From Vampirovibrio chlorellavorus (GTDB lineage Bacteria; Cyanobacteriota; Vampirovibrionia; Vampirovibrionales; Vampirovibrionaceae): a stretch of 64,000 bases of DNA. The position numbers and the translations under genes were made by a program. The notes under the pieces are model-generated. The model was not told the DNA's origin and did not search any database. It was given only the letters and a program-made list of their open reading frames with translations. The stretch spans positions 1 through 64,000 of the forward strand of contig CAIPMU010000004.1 of NCBI GenBank assembly GCA_903866275.1. The letters are read 5' to 3'. This document shows, piece by piece, positions 41,684 to 49,556 of this stretch; within the stretch, counting starts at the first letter, position 1, and every line of letters begins with the position of its first letter.

Positions 41684-42943
41684 GTGAAAGCATCCGTCCC
41701 GAATTCCAATCGTGTGAGTCCGATGACCAAACGAACCCGCATCAACAGAGTTCACCCGTCACTCATTTACCGGCAACAGAAGATTCGTCAGCGTCGCCTG
41801 GCGGTATTGGCTTTTGTGGCGTTGCTAGTGCTGGTGTTCAGCGGTATGGCCATTTGGGGAGTTTGCCAGACCATTCCACGTTTCATCACTCCCATTAGTC
41901 TGGACTCCGCTGACTTTGAGAATTTACTCACCCGTGATTTCGGGTTAAATGAGACACCCAGCCTGTTGTATTACAATACGCTGGATTATGCGCTGATGGA
42001 CCACAAGCCTTTGGGGAATCTGGAGAGCAAACTGGCTCCCATTCCCTCGGTGGGCGAGGATATGCTGCTGAAAAACCGGTTAAAACAACTGTTTGCCGAG
42101 TACCCGGCGGATCGGTTTATCCCGCACCTCTACTTTTACAATCCGCAGGATGGACAGTCGGTGGAAATCAACGGGTACGATCCTGTGCCCGCTGCCAGCG
42201 TGATCAAGTTGCCTATTTTGCTGGATTACCTGATGACTGTGGATAAAGGCCTGGTCACTGAAGACACCCCCTTGCTTTACGCCGATTTCCACCGGGCTGG
42301 CGGCTCTGGCGATTTACAGTACAAACCGTCCGGGCAGGGCTTGTTCGCCAACGACGTCGCCGGGCAGATGATTCGCATCAGCGACAACACCTGCACCAAT
42401 ATGATGATCTCCCATATGGGTGGGCTGGATGCGGTGAATGAACGCCTGAGCGATCTTGGCCTGTTGAATACACGCATTCGCAATATGTTGCCGGATCTGG
42501 AAGGTACCAACACCATTTCTCCTTACGAAATGGTGACCATCATGAACAATATCGATCACGGCCCCATTATCTCTGAACTGTCGCGGCAAAACGGACTGGA
42601 TATTCTCAAGAGTACGCACAACCGGCATCTGTTGGTAGCCCCCTTGCCGCAGGATGTGGTTGTGGCTCACAAGACCGGGGATATTGGTACCGCATTGGGT
42701 GATTCTGGCGCAGTCTACTTGCCGGATGGCCGCAAATATTTCATTTCCATGCAGGTGGAGCGCCCTTATAATGACTATACGGCCCGCGATATGGTACAAC
42801 GCGCTTCTCGTCTGATTTATGACTATGTCAATGCTCAAACCGTGACCGCCGCAACCGCAGGGGTGAGTCCAGCCGGGGCCATTCCTGCCCGTGACGAATC
42901 GACGCTGGTTGAGCCATTGCCCGCATCCTCGAACGTGAATTGA
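41684..42943 (+). CDS. Membrane-anchored class A beta-lactamase-fold serine hydrolase
   Basis: A 419-residue protein with a basic cytoplasmic N terminus, one membrane segment (about residues 38-60) and an extracytoplasmic hydrolase domain. The penicillin-binding-type motifs are complete: S172-VI-K175, S233-D-N235 and K330-T-G332. A glutamate in DLEGTNTISP could be the class A general base. Relatives are D-Ala-D-Ala-type peptidases or beta-lactamase-like proteins of unknown substrate, and the membrane anchor argues for a wall-related role rather than resistance. GTG 41684 and ATG 41723 are both possible starts. Confidence 0.82.
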   Translation: MKASVPNSNRVSPMTKRTRINRVHPSLIYRQQKIRQRRLAVLAFVALLVLVFSGMAIWGVCQTIPRFITPISLDSADFENLLTRDFGLNETPSLLYYNTLDYALMDHKPLGNLESKLAPIPSVGEDMLLKNRLKQLFAEYPADRFIPHLYFYNPQDGQSVEINGYDPVPAASVIKLPILLDYLMTVDKGLVTEDTPLLYADFHRAGGSGDLQYKPSGQGLFANDVAGQMIRISDNTCTNMMISHMGGLDAVNERLSDLGLLNTRIRNMLPDLEGTNTISPYEMVTIMNNIDHGPIISELSRQNGLDILKSTHNRHLLVAPLPQDVVVAHKTGDIGTALGDSGAVYLPDGRKYFISMQVERPYNDYTARDMVQRASRLIYDYVNAQTVTAATAGVSPAGAIPARDESTLVEPLPASSNVN

Positions 42944-42950
42944 ACCCCAG

Positions 42951-42976
42951 GCCCCACGGCAGAATTGCCGCAGGGC
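42951..42976 (+). terminator. Weak terminator-like hairpin
   Basis: GCCC-CA-CGGCA pairs with TGCCG-CA-GGGC, eight bases after the hydrolase stop; GTGGTTT follows. Confidence 0.35.
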
Positions 42977-43004
42977 TCGTGGTTTAAATTGCACTTTGCA
43001 GGAA

Positions 43005-43379
43005 TTAACGGGGTAGAGCGTATCGTTCAGGCAGGCCAAACAGCAGTGCCGAAGCGGTGATGGCCAGGTGAAGCACGTTGTCTGCCATATTCATGGGCAT
43101 CCCGAAGACCACATGGTTGGGCAACACAAAGCCCAGGATGGTCACGATCCCATAAATGGCAGCAAACGCCAGCGTAGCTCGTCGCGCCAATTCCCACCGG
43201 TTACTGAGGCCAGCCCCCAGTAGAACCACCCCGGAGAGTAGGTGAATGATATTGTGTGCCGGATTCACCATAAAGATACCGAACAACAGATGTTCCGGTT
43301 CAATGGCAGGCACGAAACCCAGGATCCCAATCACCAGAAAAATAAGCCCCATGACTTTGGCATAATTCAAAATCATCAT
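43005..43379 (-). CDS. DUF4383 membrane protein
   Basis: A 124-residue protein with four membrane segments. MMILNYAKVMGLIFLVIGILGFVP, then NPAHNIIHLLSGVVLLGAG and NMADNVLHLAITASALLFGL carry the paired N-x-x-H-L motifs of the DUF4383 family, whose function is unknown. The start at 43379 is fixed by GGGAGGA five bases upstream; the frame continues to 43448 but without such a site. Confidence 0.8.
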   Translation of the reverse strand: MMILNYAKVMGLIFLVIGILGFVPAIEPEHLLFGIFMVNPAHNIIHLLSGVVLLGAGLSNRWELARRATLAFAAIYGIVTILGFVLPNHVVFGMPMNMADNVLHLAITASALLFGLPERYALPR

Positions 43380-43696
43380 GATTTCCTCCCAATTATTACG
43401 GTGTTCACATCGTTCCAACGGGATTACAGGATAGCTCACAGCGCCCAAGCCTCACCAACAGAAAGGATCAGCGTGTGGGGGAGATTGAGGCGTAATTAAT
43501 GATAGATGCCTAACAGCATAACAAAATTGCACCCCACCCCATATTCTCCAATCGTCTATAAAAGGCAGCCAACTCGTTGCACATGGGGCATGTTTTCTGC
43601 ACCAATTACGCGGTGAGCACTTTGATAATACTGATGTCACTGAGGTGCGATTTGCTCAGTATTAAAATCCATTTTTGATTTGGAGCAGTATTCATG

Positions 43697-45043
43697 TCAT
43701 TCCTTTGAATCGATTGTTTTGGATTCAGCACCCATGGCCGCGAAATAATTCTGGCAGGCCAAATCCAGCAGGGCTTCTGTCATTCGTGGTAATTCTCGAC
43801 GATAGGCTGCCGTGTTGAGAATCTGCTCCAGCAGATCGCGCGGCTGGCAGCCTCGAAATGGCCGCTTTCCCCGGTAATGGGTGTTCACCAGATACTCAAA
43901 CGCGGTCGCCTCAAAGGGGATGTTGTATTTTTGGCACAGCTTTTCAAAGATCTGCCGGAATTCAGCCTGAGTGGGGTCCTTGACATGGATTTTATAGGGG
44001 ATTCGACGCAGAAAAGCGTCATCCACCAGCGATTTTGGATCGAGGTTGGTGGAAAAGATGATGAGTTCGTCAAAGGGTACAGCAATTTTCTGGCCATTGG
44101 GCAATACCAGAAAGTCTACACGTTTTTCCAGCGGCACAATCCAGCGATTCAGCAGATCGATGTGCGAGACACGCTGCCGCCCGAAGTCATCAATCAGAAA
44201 CACCCCGCCGTTGGCCTTCATCTGCAGGGGGGCCTCCGAGATACGCAAAATCGGATTGTACTTGATTTCCAGTGACTCCATGGTCAGTTCCCCGCCCACC
44301 ATTACCACCGGGCGACGAATCTCGATCCAGCGTGGATCATATTTGGCGATCAGGGAAGGGATTTCCTGGGACTCGGTGGGCTCATGATTCTGTGGATCGT
44401 ATAACTGGAGAATCTGACCTTCCACATAGATGGCCTTGGGAATATAAATGTTGTTGCTAAAGCACTGGGCCAGCTTTTCTGCGATCGTGGTCTTGCCGTT
44501 ACCCGGCTCGCCATACAAAAACAGCCCTCGCCCGGAATTCACTGCCGGACCAATGGTTTCAAACAGGTCGACATCAAAGACCAGATCCTGAAAGGCTTTG
44601 CTGAGTACCGCATAATCGGGTTTTTCATTGCGAATCGATTGCGCCTGAATTCCTCGAAGATAATCTTCAAAAGGGACCGGAGCAGCGCCCGCATAGGCCG
44701 ATATTTCTCGCGCCAGCATCGCCTTTTCCTGGCCGCTTTCCGTGAGCATGTAAATAAAATCGCCCACACCGGAGTTGCTTTTGTGAAACAGAAACAGGCG
44801 GTTTTTCAGGTCACACAGTATGGGCTCAACCACCCCAAAATGCAAACAGAGCTCAGCGGCGATGTCCCGCCCGGTCAGAGCACCTTTGGCCAGTAAAACT
44901 TTAAAAATCAACTCCTCAATGAGCACCTGGGTGAGACCGGTATCCTCCAGTGTTTTGGCCACGGGGGGCGTAAAGCGTCCGGCGGTTTGATGTATCGCCG
45001 GGAAGACTTGGGTCACTTGCTCATGGAAAGACGGTAACGACAT
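43697..45043 (-). CDS. AAA+ ATPase next to a Tad-like module
   Basis: A protein of about 448 residues. Residues 30-115 look like a winged helix, then an AAA+ domain with Walker A GEPGNGKT (K184), Walker B GGVFLIDDFGRQ, sensor 1 IIFSTNLDP and the Arg-finger DDAFLRRIPYKI. LLNRWIVPLEKRVDFL lies between. I recognise this as a widespread but functionally uncharacterised AAA+ family. It is not a TadA secretion ATPase (no Asp or His boxes of that kind). AGGA is six bases before ATG 45043, better than ATG 45058. It is transcribed divergently from the Tad-like genes and could share their regulation. Confidence 0.8.
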   Translation of the reverse strand: MSLPSFHEQVTQVFPAIHQTAGRFTPPVAKTLEDTGLTQVLIEELIFKVLLAKGALTGRDIAAELCLHFGVVEPILCDLKNRLFLFHKSNSGVGDFIYMLTESGQEKAMLAREISAYAGAAPVPFEDYLRGIQAQSIRNEKPDYAVLSKAFQDLVFDVDLFETIGPAVNSGRGLFLYGEPGNGKTTIAEKLAQCFSNNIYIPKAIYVEGQILQLYDPQNHEPTESQEIPSLIAKYDPRWIEIRRPVVMVGGELTMESLEIKYNPILRISEAPLQMKANGGVFLIDDFGRQRVSHIDLLNRWIVPLEKRVDFLVLPNGQKIAVPFDELIIFSTNLDPKSLVDDAFLRRIPYKIHVKDPTQAEFRQIFEKLCQKYNIPFEATAFEYLVNTHYRGKRPFRGCQPRDLLEQILNTAAYRRELPRMTEALLDLACQNYFAAMGAESKTIDSKE

Positions 45044-45058
45044 ATAACATCCTATCAT

Positions 45059-45415
45059 TCAATTCAAATGATTCCATTTAAAATAGCGCTGTCGATACTG
45101 ATTCAGAGCCTGCCTTGTGTATTTTGATTGAATGCGGCGCAACATCAAGCCCAAGTGTATTGCTCATCATCCGACATCCCAATGAATCTGTTACTCAATA
45201 TACTTGGGTTGTTATGCCCCATAACGCCAGTTTGAAAACCATTCTTTAAGTGCATGTAACATTCCTAGAGAAACAGGTTTAATGAGGTCTCTGGAATGGG
45301 TATATATGCATTAGCCTTTAGGATTCAGCAAGTAGTGAAGTGATGATCAGGCCTGTGGTTTTTAACCCCCTCAGAACTGACGTTGTGGTTTTTATTAAGT
45401 ATTGAGGAAGCCTTT
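45059..45415. other. Divergent promoter region of the Tad-like module
   Basis: About 350 AT-rich bases between the AAA+ gene and the TadG-like gene. It must hold both promoters. I see no coding frame, and no -35/-10 pair strong enough to mark. Confidence 0.4.
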
Positions 45416-46774
45416 ATGGGAATTTTGATCCGTGTATCCTCCAATGGAGGCGCATTGAACCTGTTAAGCGTGGCGCTGGTTGTACTGGGCCTCAGTGCCT
45501 CTGTTTTTGCTATTGACTTGCCAGTTTACTTTAATGCACGCAACCAATTGCAAACTTCTGTGGATGCCGCAGCTTTAGCCGGGGCGGCCAGCTTGCCGGT
45601 CAGTACCGCCAAGGCTCAGGCCGATGCCTATCAGGTGGCCGCGTTGAACCCTATTGGCAAAATCAGTATTCAACCTACTGATTTAAGCTATATTTCCACT
45701 CAAAGCAAGTTCACCGTCACCGGGAAGGTCGAAGTCCCTACCTTTGTCGGCAAACTACTCTGTGCTTTTTCCGGGAAAATGGGCACCCACTTTGATGATG
45801 GAACGGGAACCACCACGGGCGCTACCGGGACTACCAGTACCGGAACTGCCACGGTCAGTACGCAAGGCTGTAACACCATGACGGTGGTGGCCTCTTCCTC
45901 TGCAGCACCTGCTGCACGCGACACCATTCTGGTCATTGACACGTCCAGTTCCATGGATGATCTGGGGCACAACCGCCCGCTGGCCGATGTGGAAGCGGCA
46001 GCAAACAACTACATCGCCACCATTGCCGCCCTCAACAACACGTCTGTGGATCGCATTGCGCTGGTGACCTTTAACCAGACCGGCACCCTGCAAGTACCCC
46101 TTACCGCGCAAACGGATTCTCCCGGTTTTGCCAAGGTAAAAAGCGCCGTGAGTTCCATACGACTTTTCAGCGGGATTGGCTGGAACACGAACTACGAAGC
46201 CGGTCTTCATACCGCACTGGATGAAATGCAAAAAAATGGCCGCCAGAATGCGGAAAAAACCATTATCTTCATGACTGACGGAATGCCAAACCTGCCTGCA
46301 CCGGCCAGTTATTACCTGTATAACAAAAATGAACCCTACCGCAAATGCTCCGATTCGGTGAACAACTCAGCGGTCGTCAAGGCACTTTGTGTGGTCAAAA
46401 ACGGGCAAAAAGTCTGCCCCACCCTGCCCAACACCGCCATCACCACGAGTATGATTTCCAGTACGGATTTTCAGTGCGCCACCAACTATGTCAATACCAT
46501 GCAGGAGCTCACCAACTCGCAAACCGATCGGGCCAAAACGATGGATGTGACCATTGATACGATCGTTATCAACGATACCAACAATTACGACAACGCCACG
46601 GAAATTCTGCGCCGCATGATCAAGGATGAAACCTGGTCTCCGGATCAGCTGGCCTATATGGCTACTACCACCAAGGGACAGCAATACTCGGCTCTAAACT
46701 ATGATGCAACGGCCATTAAAAACATCTATCAGGCCATCTCACAAAATATCCGCATCAAGTTAACCGCGCAATAA
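45416..46774 (+). CDS. TadG-like pilus protein with von Willebrand A domain
   Basis: A 452-residue membrane-anchored protein. The N terminus LNLLSVALVVLGLSASVFAIDLPVYFNARNQLQTSVDAAALAGA is the TadG/TadE-type anchor with the DAAALAGA motif. A Thr/Gly-rich stretch (residues 130-160) leads to a VWA domain whose MIDAS metal site is intact: D175-x-S177-x-S179 and, further on, IFMTDGMPN. VWA domains of this kind mediate adhesion or pilus assembly. GAGGAAG lies six bases before ATG 45416. First of three co-oriented genes. Confidence 0.82.
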   Translation: MGILIRVSSNGGALNLLSVALVVLGLSASVFAIDLPVYFNARNQLQTSVDAAALAGAASLPVSTAKAQADAYQVAALNPIGKISIQPTDLSYISTQSKFTVTGKVEVPTFVGKLLCAFSGKMGTHFDDGTGTTTGATGTTSTGTATVSTQGCNTMTVVASSSAAPAARDTILVIDTSSSMDDLGHNRPLADVEAAANNYIATIAALNNTSVDRIALVTFNQTGTLQVPLTAQTDSPGFAKVKSAVSSIRLFSGIGWNTNYEAGLHTALDEMQKNGRQNAEKTIIFMTDGMPNLPAPASYYLYNKNEPYRKCSDSVNNSAVVKALCVVKNGQKVCPTLPNTAITTSMISSTDFQCATNYVNTMQELTNSQTDRAKTMDVTIDTIVINDTNNYDNATEILRRMIKDETWSPDQLAYMATTTKGQQYSALNYDATAIKNIYQAISQNIRIKLTAQ

Positions 46775-46812
46775 TACCGATTCAGCCTCAAACGATACAG
46801 GAGGTCCCCTCG

Positions 46813-47037
46813 ATGTCATCGATCAAAAAACAAGCCGCAAGCCTGGGTCTGATCATTGCACTAGCTGCTTGCCTGACCTGCGGGAACCAGGGCTGGGCGA
46901 CGGACAACTTGTCCCAAAGCACCACCCTGCATGGGTTTATCCCCACCGGAATTATCAGCAGTGTACTCGATGACATCCCCGAGTGTGAAGATTCCGACGG
47001 GGACGGCGAGTGCGACGTCAATCCACCTTCGGAGTAA
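46813..47037 (+). CDS. Tiny secreted acidic protein
   Basis: A 74-residue exported protein lying between the two Tad-like genes. A signal peptide (residues 1-30, ending GWA) precedes a short mature part ending in an acidic tail (ECEDSDGDGECDVNPPSE), whose DSDGDGECD resembles a calcium-binding loop. LAACLTC contains a possible lipobox, but the WA-TD cleavage fits better. AGGAGGT is eight bases before the ATG. No family recognised. Confidence 0.65.
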   Translation: MSSIKKQAASLGLIIALAACLTCGNQGWATDNLSQSTTLHGFIPTGIISSVLDDIPECEDSDGDGECDVNPPSE

Positions 47038-47143
47038 GCCGAACAAATTCCGCCAGAGCCATTCCGCTCCCCTCAAAGTCTAAAAATCAGGTAAACTGTT
47101 TCTGGAGTTAGTTGCATCAAATGCTGCGGGGAACAGGTACTCT

Positions 47144-48277
47144 GTGTTGAGGTTCTATATCGGTTTGCAAACAAAGCCACTCGGACGGCCCCGCCAGGCC
47201 GGGTATCAGGTCATGCAAATCTTTGGGATGATCCTGATAGGCATCATGATGTCTGCTTTGGCCATTGATTTTGGGTATTATTACGCCACCAGCAACACCA
47301 TTCGCACCGCCGCCGATAGCGCGGCGCTGGCCGCAGTGGGGGAACTGGTGCGAGATAATGCCGGTGTTCCGGCTACCCGGCTCCGGCATGCAAGAATTCA
47401 GGCACAGGTTTACCTGCATCAGAATCAGCCCAATTTGGACCTGCAATCGGAAGATCTCGTCTTTGGCTATATCAATCCGGCCAGCAAGACTTACCACCGC
47501 AATACCTTTGCCACCCCCACCGCGGATCCGAATTTTGCACAAACCGATGGCTTTAACGCGGTTTGGGTGAAGATACGCAAGACCCTGGATAGCCCCAACG
47601 GGCCATTAAAACCCATTGTGGGCAATCTGATCGGCATTCACGGCATGGCCCTGGAAGCCACCTCGGTGGCCCTGGTCGATCAGGCAATTCAGGAAATGAA
47701 TAAGGCCGGGGTTCGTCCGCTGGCGGCCTGTGAGGCTCATCTGGCCCAGGCCATGCAGGATGGCATTCTGGAAAATAACACGGTACGGTTTTATGGCGAC
47801 CATGTCACGTTAGACGGGGCGGACAACCTCAGCGCTTGCCCAAACAAGGGAACCGGAAACTGGAGCTTTCTGGATTTAACCGGCTGCGAGAGCGGAAAGC
47901 CAGACGCCTCAGTGATGCGGGACTGGATGGGTGGCGGCTATAGCGGCACTGTTCAGTCGCAGCAATGCCACAACACCCGATCCGGAGAGTTTATCACCAG
48001 TTTGGGGGAAAGCATGAACAGCCTGATCGCCCGTCGATTAGTCTTTCCCATTCCGCTCTACCGGAGCTGGAGCGGGAGTGGTACCACAGGACAAGTTATG
48101 GTCACGGGGTTTACCGGATTTCAAATTACCGGATACAACAATAATCGGGGCGCAGACAGTTACATTGAAGGTCATTTTGCCCGCTATATCTGTAAACAGG
48201 GTTGCCACTCCCGTACAACAGCAAGCAGTACAGTCCCCGGCTCCGTCGTCAAATTGCGTCTGGCCTCGCGCTCCTAG
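47144..48277 (+). CDS. TadE/TadG-like surface protein (DUF2134-type)
   Basis: A 377-residue protein with the same N-terminal anchor type as the TadG-like gene: IFGMILIGIMMSALAIDFGYYYATSNTIRTAADSAALAAVGEL, followed by a long extracytoplasmic domain with eight Cys that can pair. The anchor type is used by pseudopilins and TadE/F/G minor pilins of Flp pili. No VWA motif. The GTG start at 47144 has only a weak ribosome site; M24 is the alternative. Third gene of the module. Confidence 0.8.
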   Translation: MLRFYIGLQTKPLGRPRQAGYQVMQIFGMILIGIMMSALAIDFGYYYATSNTIRTAADSAALAAVGELVRDNAGVPATRLRHARIQAQVYLHQNQPNLDLQSEDLVFGYINPASKTYHRNTFATPTADPNFAQTDGFNAVWVKIRKTLDSPNGPLKPIVGNLIGIHGMALEATSVALVDQAIQEMNKAGVRPLAACEAHLAQAMQDGILENNTVRFYGDHVTLDGADNLSACPNKGTGNWSFLDLTGCESGKPDASVMRDWMGGGYSGTVQSQQCHNTRSGEFITSLGESMNSLIARRLVFPIPLYRSWSGSGTTGQVMVTGFTGFQITGYNNNRGADSYIEGHFARYICKQGCHSRTTASSTVPGSVVKLRLASRS

Positions 48278-48326: not shown

Positions 48327-49532
48327 CTAGTGACTCCGACGGCAAAGGACATGATAGATGGCTTTGGCCACCGGCACGCCATCCAGAATGTATTCGGCGG
48401 ACAATTCGCCTTCCAGTGTCTGGTCGTCTACATAAGACACCATCAGACTCTCGTTGCGCTTCCAGAGGGTATTGGTTTCGTAGTGATAACTGGTATTGAT
48501 AATCGTCATGCTGCCATAAATCCGCTCCGGTAACTCGGAAATGCGGAAGAGACGAACCCGTTCGGATTCGATGTTGATGCCAAAGTTATCATAGAGCACT
48601 TCGACCAGACTGCCGGTTTCCATCCAGTCGCCACAGAATTTCGTGGCATCGAAAGGAGTGGTCAGCGAAGCAATGCGCTCTTCCATCTGCTGAACATGAT
48701 GTTTCATCATGTCATTGCGCTGCTTTTCCTGCTGAACTTCCTCCTGCCTGGCCTGAATCATTTTTTCGCTGTCCAGCAGTTGCTTGTGCAGGCGTGATTT
48801 TTCTTCCAGCAATTTGAACTTTTCGTTCTCATTCTGATTCTTGCGCAGTTCATTAATCTGCCCGGCCATCTCTCTCACCTTGTTATGAAACAGGCTGTTG
48901 GCACTGTAAAGGTGAGAGTTCAGCTTTTCGGTTTCCAGTAATTTTTTGTAGAGCTGATCTTTTTCACGGTTCAGGCGGTTGACCAGATTGATCACGTTGG
49001 CCGCACCGTCTCCCAACTGATCACCACGCAAATTGGGGCGCTTTGGAATGGCCGCATAAGGACTTTTATTCAAAGTTTTGGCGGAAGCCACAGGGGCAGA
49101 TGGTTGTTGCGACTGTGGCGCCTGCGGTTGGGTAAAACCGGCGGGTCGTTGCGAGACCGAATTCACCGAAGGCACTTCAGGCATTGATGGATTCGGAGAC
49201 AGAGGCGGCGCAAGAGGTATGCTATCCAGCGCAGGGCCACCCACTGAAGCCATTACAGGAACCGGGGATGCTATCTGAGGACGAGACGCCTCGATAGGGG
49301 GCAGGTTGATGATTTCCAAAATCTCAGTAATGGTTCTGCCCAGCGCCAGGTGCTTTTTAATATTTTTAAAAAGATTCACATGGTGGGGACTGTATTGCTT
49401 ACGGCCGTACTCGTCTACTGGAATTTCCAGTTGAAGGGCTTTTTCCCAGTCCAACAGGTCAGATTCCTGAATATCGTATTTTTTCAAGGCTTCCAGAGCG
49501 GTATCTACGGTATACAAAGGCAGGCTCCCCAT
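48327..49532 (-). CDS. MerR-like HTH protein with coiled coil
   Basis: A 401-residue protein of unusual build. Residues 8-75 look like a MerR-type winged helix (LYTVDTALEALKKYDIQESDLLDWEKALQLEIPVDEYGRKQYSPHHVNLFKNIKKH). A Pro/Ser/Gln-rich linker (about 85-150) leads to a long coiled coil (about 165-290, heptad-like runs of E, K, L and Q), and a compact C-terminal domain (FCGDWMETGSLVEVLYDNFG ... YHYETNTLWKRNESLMVSYVDD) that I do not recognise. The -10 TATAAT and GGGAG before ATG 49532 define the start. It converges with the Tad-like genes. Confidence 0.7.
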   Translation of the reverse strand: MGSLPLYTVDTALEALKKYDIQESDLLDWEKALQLEIPVDEYGRKQYSPHHVNLFKNIKKHLALGRTITEILEIINLPPIEASRPQIASPVPVMASVGGPALDSIPLAPPLSPNPSMPEVPSVNSVSQRPAGFTQPQAPQSQQPSAPVASAKTLNKSPYAAIPKRPNLRGDQLGDGAANVINLVNRLNREKDQLYKKLLETEKLNSHLYSANSLFHNKVREMAGQINELRKNQNENEKFKLLEEKSRLHKQLLDSEKMIQARQEEVQQEKQRNDMMKHHVQQMEERIASLTTPFDATKFCGDWMETGSLVEVLYDNFGINIESERVRLFRISELPERIYGSMTIINTSYHYETNTLWKRNESLMVSYVDDQTLEGELSAEYILDGVPVAKAIYHVLCRRSH

Positions 49533-49556
49533 TAAATGCTGTGCTCCCACTATCCT

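Follow-up and report, generated by a model that had tools for sequence, protein, structure and literature searches.

The genes at positions 43,697 to 48,277 of the window, by which we mean the whole stretch of 64,000 nucleotides analysed here (positions 1-64000 of contig C4 in the 3.0 Mb Vampirovibrio chlorellavorus genome G000), probably form a detached accessory and tip module of a Tad (Flp, type IVc) pilus, together with a cytosolic accessory AAA+ ATPase that would act in assembly or remodelling. We put the probability of this reading at roughly 0.6. The AAA+ protein looks like an unrecognised accessory Tad ATPase, because it is found inside the tad operons of many unrelated bacteria.

The locus and its Tad-domain proteins

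The four-gene set described in the initial annotation is present, with open reading frames and domains that match. The gene on the minus strand (43697..45058) encodes the AAA+ ATPase of 453 aa with an N-terminal winged-helix domain, as judged from the ORF, its homologues and an AlphaFold model. It is divergent from the VWA-Tad gene on the plus strand (45383..46774), and the intergenic region between them (45059..45382) would, from the coordinates, hold both promoters. The ORF call of the VWA-Tad gene opens at 45383, and the ATG at 45416 is the likelier start. The same strand carries a gene for a secreted acidic protein of 74 aa (46813..47037), identified by its ORF and by motif searches, and another for a second TadG-like protein of 377 aa (47144..48277), which has a Tad domain and a weak Tad_C match in Pfam and is without VWA. 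The adjoining minus-strand gene for a MerR-HTH and coiled-coil protein (48327..49550; Pfam, synteny) is probably not part of the module; it keeps its syntenic place beside the Tad genes within the genus and family, in G003, G004, G007 and G009. On the other side, near the AAA+ gene (41684-43448), are genes for a protein of beta-lactamase fold (PF13354) and for a DUF4383 membrane protein, which remain neighbours in G001, G003 and G004. The window also contains a tmRNA gene (333-752) with the tag AVDFSRKAAKAA.

The VWA-Tad protein matches VWA_2 (4e-13) and Tad PF13400 (5e-6) in Pfam, and the second TadG-like protein matches PF13400 (2e-6). The PF13400 scores of the two proteins, 27.3 and 28.2 bits, lie above the Pfam cut-off of 22.3, and a single N-terminal membrane helix is predicted in each. 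The MIDAS residues of the VWA domain (D186-x-S188-x-S190, T269 and D299) are intact, and are invariant in an alignment of eight homologous sequences. The earlier description of two TadE/G-type anchors, one of them with an intact VWA metal site, is thus borne out. Since a PF13400 search of the host genome returned only these two proteins, the TadG-type proteins of the genome are located in the window.

Two tad loci occur on other contigs of the host genome, C16 and C14. The core of the C16 locus is complete, comprising two Flp-like pilins, a TadE-like protein, CpaB, CpaC, CpaE, TadA, TadB and TadC; TadA, CpaC, CpaB, TadB, TadC and the ATPase domain of CpaE are confirmed by Pfam, while Flp and TadE are named by sequence and position only. 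The C14 locus, which is without pilins, encodes CpaB, CpaC, CpaE, TadA, TadB and TadC. As the initial annotation had it, the ATPase nearest to the window proteins is not TadA, and tadA is present in both tad loci. In two relatives of the same order, a VWA-TadG homologue lies inside the tad operon itself: in G010 (L076) VWA-TadG and TadG are followed by TadE, CpaB, CpaC and CpaE, and in G012 (L081) the order is TadE-CpaB-CpaC-tiny-VWA, where tiny denotes the small acidic protein. The same parts are united in a tad operon of Phycisphaerae (L233), which encodes CpaB, VWA-TadG, CpaE, TadA, TadB, TadC and AAA+. With two tad loci in the genome and homologues within the operons of G010 and G012, both window Tad-domain proteins belong with a Tad machine.

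The small secreted protein is a recurrent companion of VWA-TadG. Small secreted acidic ORFs directly adjoin VWA-TadG in G002, G007, G009, G010, G012 and G014, and the tail C-x-D-x-[DT]-x-[DS]-x-x-C-[DE] is common to the window protein (where it reads C-x-D-x-D-G-D-G-x-C-D) and those of G002, G010, G012 and G014. When 58 whole genomes were searched with a DNA pattern of this motif, exactly four matches were obtained, namely the tiny genes of the window, G002, G012 and G014, all of them beside a VWA-TadG gene, and a reversed-control pattern gave none in the same genomes; the tail is therefore not a chance resemblance. The strict motif also occurs five times in the 7,772 small ORFs from the loci retrieved, always beside VWA-TadG, yet this expression was fitted to these very sequences, so that the DNA pattern is the fairer test. 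The protein matches no Pfam family. By eye, its loop CEDSDGDGECD fits the DxDxDG calcium loop of EF-hand or thrombospondin type 3 repeats, and from this pattern the protein may bind calcium. The secreted protein with a calcium-loop-like tail that was proposed earlier has accordingly gained in standing, as the motif recurs in these genomes only beside VWA-TadG.

Three congeneric genomes have no VWA-TadG at the locus (L067 of G003, L068 of G004 and L069 of G001), where the AAA+ and TadG-like genes are still divergent neighbours and both the VWA-TadG and tiny genes are gone from the locus; the tip part has therefore been lost or swapped within one genus. In G007 (L071 7815-10265) and G009 (L072 6515-9163), a large acyl-CoA dehydrogenase-like gene separates the AAA+ gene from the VWA/tiny pair.

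An unnamed AAA+ family and its linkage to Tad systems

In the AAA+ protein, the Walker A and Walker B (DDFGRQ) motifs, sensor 1 and the paired arginines are intact and conserved. The hallmarks of its proposed family, that is, Walker B DD[FL]GRQ, FS[TS]N sensor 1, RR finger, winged helix, and linkage to or co-occurrence with Tad, were all found in it. Its AlphaFold model has a mean pLDDT of 83.9 and values mostly above 94 in the winged-helix start, with which weak TrmB/HTH matches of its relatives agree, so that the winged helix recognised in the initial annotation holds up. The protein has no membrane helix and is predicted to be cytosolic. The window protein stays below the cut-off of every Pfam family, and neither Pfam nor NCBIfam has an entry that covers the AAA+ family, whose plasmid members are annotated as 'AAA family ATPase', 'ATP-binding protein' or 'hypothetical'. 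Searches with phmmer and profiles against the PDB picked up spastin/p97-type proteins, chiefly through their Walker and arginine-finger stretches, and left the family unplaced. The folds closest to the model are those of Pyrococcus Q8U0N8 (PDB 8p49), the ATPase domain of an archaeal Lon (4zpx) and BchI (1g8p), although at 13-16% identity and with no shared family or known shared role; NtrC-type proteins (NtrX, FleQ, NtrC1), RuvB, dynein and NorQ come lower in the search.

Several candidate identities were rejected. MoxR membership is excluded by PF07726 (AAA_3), which matches 0/42 homologues and scored a true MoxR at 210 bits in the same library, and identity with TadA/CpaF or another T2SSE ATPase by PF00437, which gives no match in the window protein. 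Likewise, the anti-phage ATPase IetA/IteA reached 31.8 bits against an NCBIfam cut-off of 510, with partial AAA stretches only, and no subtilase (the IetS partner) was seen beside the AAA+ gene.

The family nearly always occurs together with TadA. Within the class, the AAA+ gene is conserved in 27 of 58 relatives, and TadA is present in 27/27 of these genomes versus 9/31 of those lacking it (Fisher 4e-9, a value that ignores kinship). AAA+ never occurs in families of the class without TadA, and it is absent from the TadA-bearing family f8, for which reason we regard it as accessory. In Phycisphaerae, 23 of 198 genomes carry it, and TadA is found in 23/23 of them versus 99/175 of the rest (6e-6, again ignoring kinship). 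A phylum-wide sample returned the window genome alone. Among 50 assorted AAA+ genomes TadA is present in 48, the other two being MAGs in which it was not detected. In three Deltaproteobacteria/Desulfobacterales MAGs (L113, L114 and L115; TadA not detected in L113 and L114), the AAA+ proteins are nearest to the Vampirovibrionales branch of the tree, a pattern which may reflect an interphylum transfer together with loss of Tad, or else MAGs that are incomplete.

In numerous loci the two are linked directly. On plasmids, all 15 sampled AAA+ loci, from four proteobacterial orders and mainly rhizobial, are in or beside a complete tad operon. For example, the AAA+ gene is directly behind tadC in Rhizobium, Ensifer and Sinorhizobium, about 2 kb behind it in Pseudorhodobacter, convergent with it in Salipiger, and just before cpaB in Burkholderia, Paraburkholderia and Photobacterium (behind the genes for pilin and prepilin peptidase in records that annotate them). 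A locus of Desulfobacterales (L121) encodes AAA+, prepilin peptidase, CpaB, CpaC, TadE-like, TadG, CpaE, TadA, TadB and TadC. In four Phycisphaerae loci (L136, L120, L233 and L236) the gene lies about 43-142 bp behind tadC, and in one of Vampirovibrionales (L117) it lies one gene before CpaE-TadA-TadB-TadC. In addition, the AAA+ gene is present twice in two Phycisphaerae genomes that have a pair of tad loci, and one of the copies is directly behind tadC. In the AAA+ tree the Tad-linked copies are on separate branches, the four Phycisphaerae copies forming one clade. The conservation of AAA+ next to Tad-domain genes, on which the initial annotation had staked its proposal, is therefore real: the arrangement persists within the genus and family, and the AAA+ gene recurs in the tad operons of other phyla. 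To dismiss the AAA+ gene on the ground that TadA exists elsewhere in the genome is ruled out by its position inside tad operons. We found no mention of the AAA+ family in Tad systems in the open-licence literature.

Many chromosomal copies are placed differently. No tad core gene is directly beside AAA+ in 76 of the best 80 genome loci, and most of the Planctomycetes and Obscuribacterales loci are away from tad genes. In Obscuribacterales-type relatives (L194 4474-9432, L199, L200, L201 and L202) the AAA+ gene comes after genes for DUF58 and a TgpA-type transglutaminase, on the same strand and often within about 300 bp, with a true MoxR gene about 4 kb upstream in some (L158). From this DUF58-transglutaminase context, the role of the AAA+ protein may be wider than Tad. 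In Planctomycetes (e.g., L137 8461-9642 and L142 11594-14896), an FHA-EAL protein is encoded nearby in 11 loci, mostly on the opposite strand, and in 10 loci the gene directly downstream encodes a large Ser/Thr kinase that has a tubulin-like domain.

Competing explanations

The main rival to an assembly or remodelling role is that the AAA+ protein is a DNA-binding regulator of tad genes, whose winged helix would sit on tad promoters while ATP drives promoter opening or oligomerisation. A cytosolic protein with an N-terminal winged helix would suit this role, and so would the divergent orientation of AAA+ and Tad genes in the window genus, an arrangement common for regulators; the fold search also includes the sigma-54 activators NtrX, FleQ and NtrC1. 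Activators of this type contact sigma-54 through the GAFTGA loop. However, the winged-helix domain has a net charge of about -1 over 42 homologues and its recognition-helix region is neither conserved nor basic, which is weak evidence against DNA binding, and the AAA+ gene mostly stands within the tad operon or at its end, which is less usual for regulators. We consider the regulator unlikely, though it deserves to be taken more seriously than the remaining rivals.

Were the protein instead an unrelated, chaperone-like housekeeping ATPase, its position beside the Tad genes of the window would be incidental. In favour of this, the bulk of the chromosomal copies in Planctomycetes and Obscuribacterales lie away from tad genes. 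This explanation is already strongly disfavoured by the AAA+ genes within complete tad operons of four proteobacterial orders, Desulfobacterales, Phycisphaerae and Vampirovibrionales, by their confinement to TadA-bearing genomes in the two classes surveyed, and by the second copy that accompanies a second tad locus. Still less probable is the model of the initial annotation, in which AAA+ and VWA proteins make up a MoxR-like surface assembly system of their own, separate from the Flp pilus. The two genes do adjoin in the window and in G002, and are near each other in G007 and G009, and the broad fold neighbourhood takes in Mg-chelatase BchI and NorQ; yet all 42 homologues are without a match to the MoxR family, and three genomes of the genus retain AAA+ and TadG without VWA. 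Since the VWA domain is predicted to be outside the cytoplasm and the AAA+ protein in the cytosol, direct contact of the MoxR-VWA kind is unlikely. Distinctness from the Flp pilus fails because VWA-TadG occurs in the tad operons of relatives and its architecture matches that of CpaL; moreover, AAA+ is found in ordinary tad operons, and the host genome has two tad loci, including a complete tad operon for which the window proteins would be ordinary TadE/G. What survives of that model is that AAA+ and surface proteins go together, the AAA+ protein being a conserved partner of such a surface system, but not its 'MoxR type'.

Known systems and the proposed mechanism

The nearest counterpart of the VWA protein is CpaL of Caulobacter crescentus, a minor pilin fused to a VWA domain and proposed to sit at the tip of the Tad pilus (PMC12607857). 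By domain layout alone, the two share an N-terminal pilin-like/Tad anchor, a C-terminal VWA with a DxSxS...T...D MIDAS and an association with Tad (PMC12607857), and with an intact MIDAS after a pilin-type N-terminus the window protein can be classed as a putative CpaL-like VWA minor pilin. Unlike CpaL (about 626 aa), it has 463 aa, the beta-barrel insertion of CpaL is not seen in it, and a conserved tiny calcium-loop protein is encoded beside it. It also resembles the TadG/KilN tip minor pilins of the Myxococcus Kil system and other Tad pili, in which a large TadG minor pilin carries a modular C-terminal domain at the tip (PMC12075869). Unlike those of Kil, the window genes are away from the core tad loci; the predatory function is that of the Kil system. 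The MoxR AAA+/VWA systems (RavA-ViaA, NorQ-NorD) are similar in that AAA+ and VWA genes are close and in a distant structural neighbourhood (BchI, NorQ), but differ in that the window AAA+ is not MoxR by Pfam, its VWA partner is across the membrane, and the association is with Tad.

For the AAA+ protein, ExeA/GspA is best taken as a working precedent, not as a relative. This accessory AAA-type ATPase acts beside the main assembly ATPase and is needed to build the type II secretion machine (PMC4098917). ExeA has a peptidoglycan-interacting part and a partner, ExeB, whereas the window protein is without a membrane helix or detected partner, and no close sequence relationship was seen between the two.

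We propose that both Tad-domain proteins are TadG-type minor pilins, of which VWA-TadG would be the CpaL-like pilus-tip protein, its MIDAS metal site binding a surface or a partner. The 74-aa protein would serve it as a dedicated partner and probably bind calcium at the pilus tip, and the two would form the metal-dependent tip of a pilus built by the C16 or C14 machinery, with the core machine (TadA, TadB, TadC, CpaB, CpaC, CpaE, Flp and TadE) coming from these loci elsewhere in the genome. The AAA+ protein would be a cytosolic accessory ATPase of an unnamed family found time and again with Tad systems. Its ring would most likely dock via the winged helix onto a Tad component of the cytosol or inner membrane and spend ATP on assembling, remodelling or recycling the Tad machine or the minor-pilin complex, comparable to ExeA/GspA in type II secretion.

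A wider proposal, for and against which we see about equal odds, is that the unnamed family is a widespread, dedicated second Tad ATPase, encoded in tad operons from Vampirovibrionales and Planctomycetes to Alpha-, Beta- and Gammaproteobacteria, which governs assembly or dynamics, either of the whole pilus or of its tip, and that a calcium-loop microprotein works with the VWA tip protein in Vampirovibrionales. Extension and retraction of Tad pili are attributed to one ATPase, TadA/CpaF. If the proposal is true, a conserved second ATPase in the tad operons of many phyla would be a candidate regulator or assembly factor of Tad pili. The attachment of Vampirovibrio to algae is poorly understood, and the small protein with the calcium loop, encoded next to the VWA tip protein, would be a candidate metal-dependent tip partner in the Vampirovibrio-related lineage.
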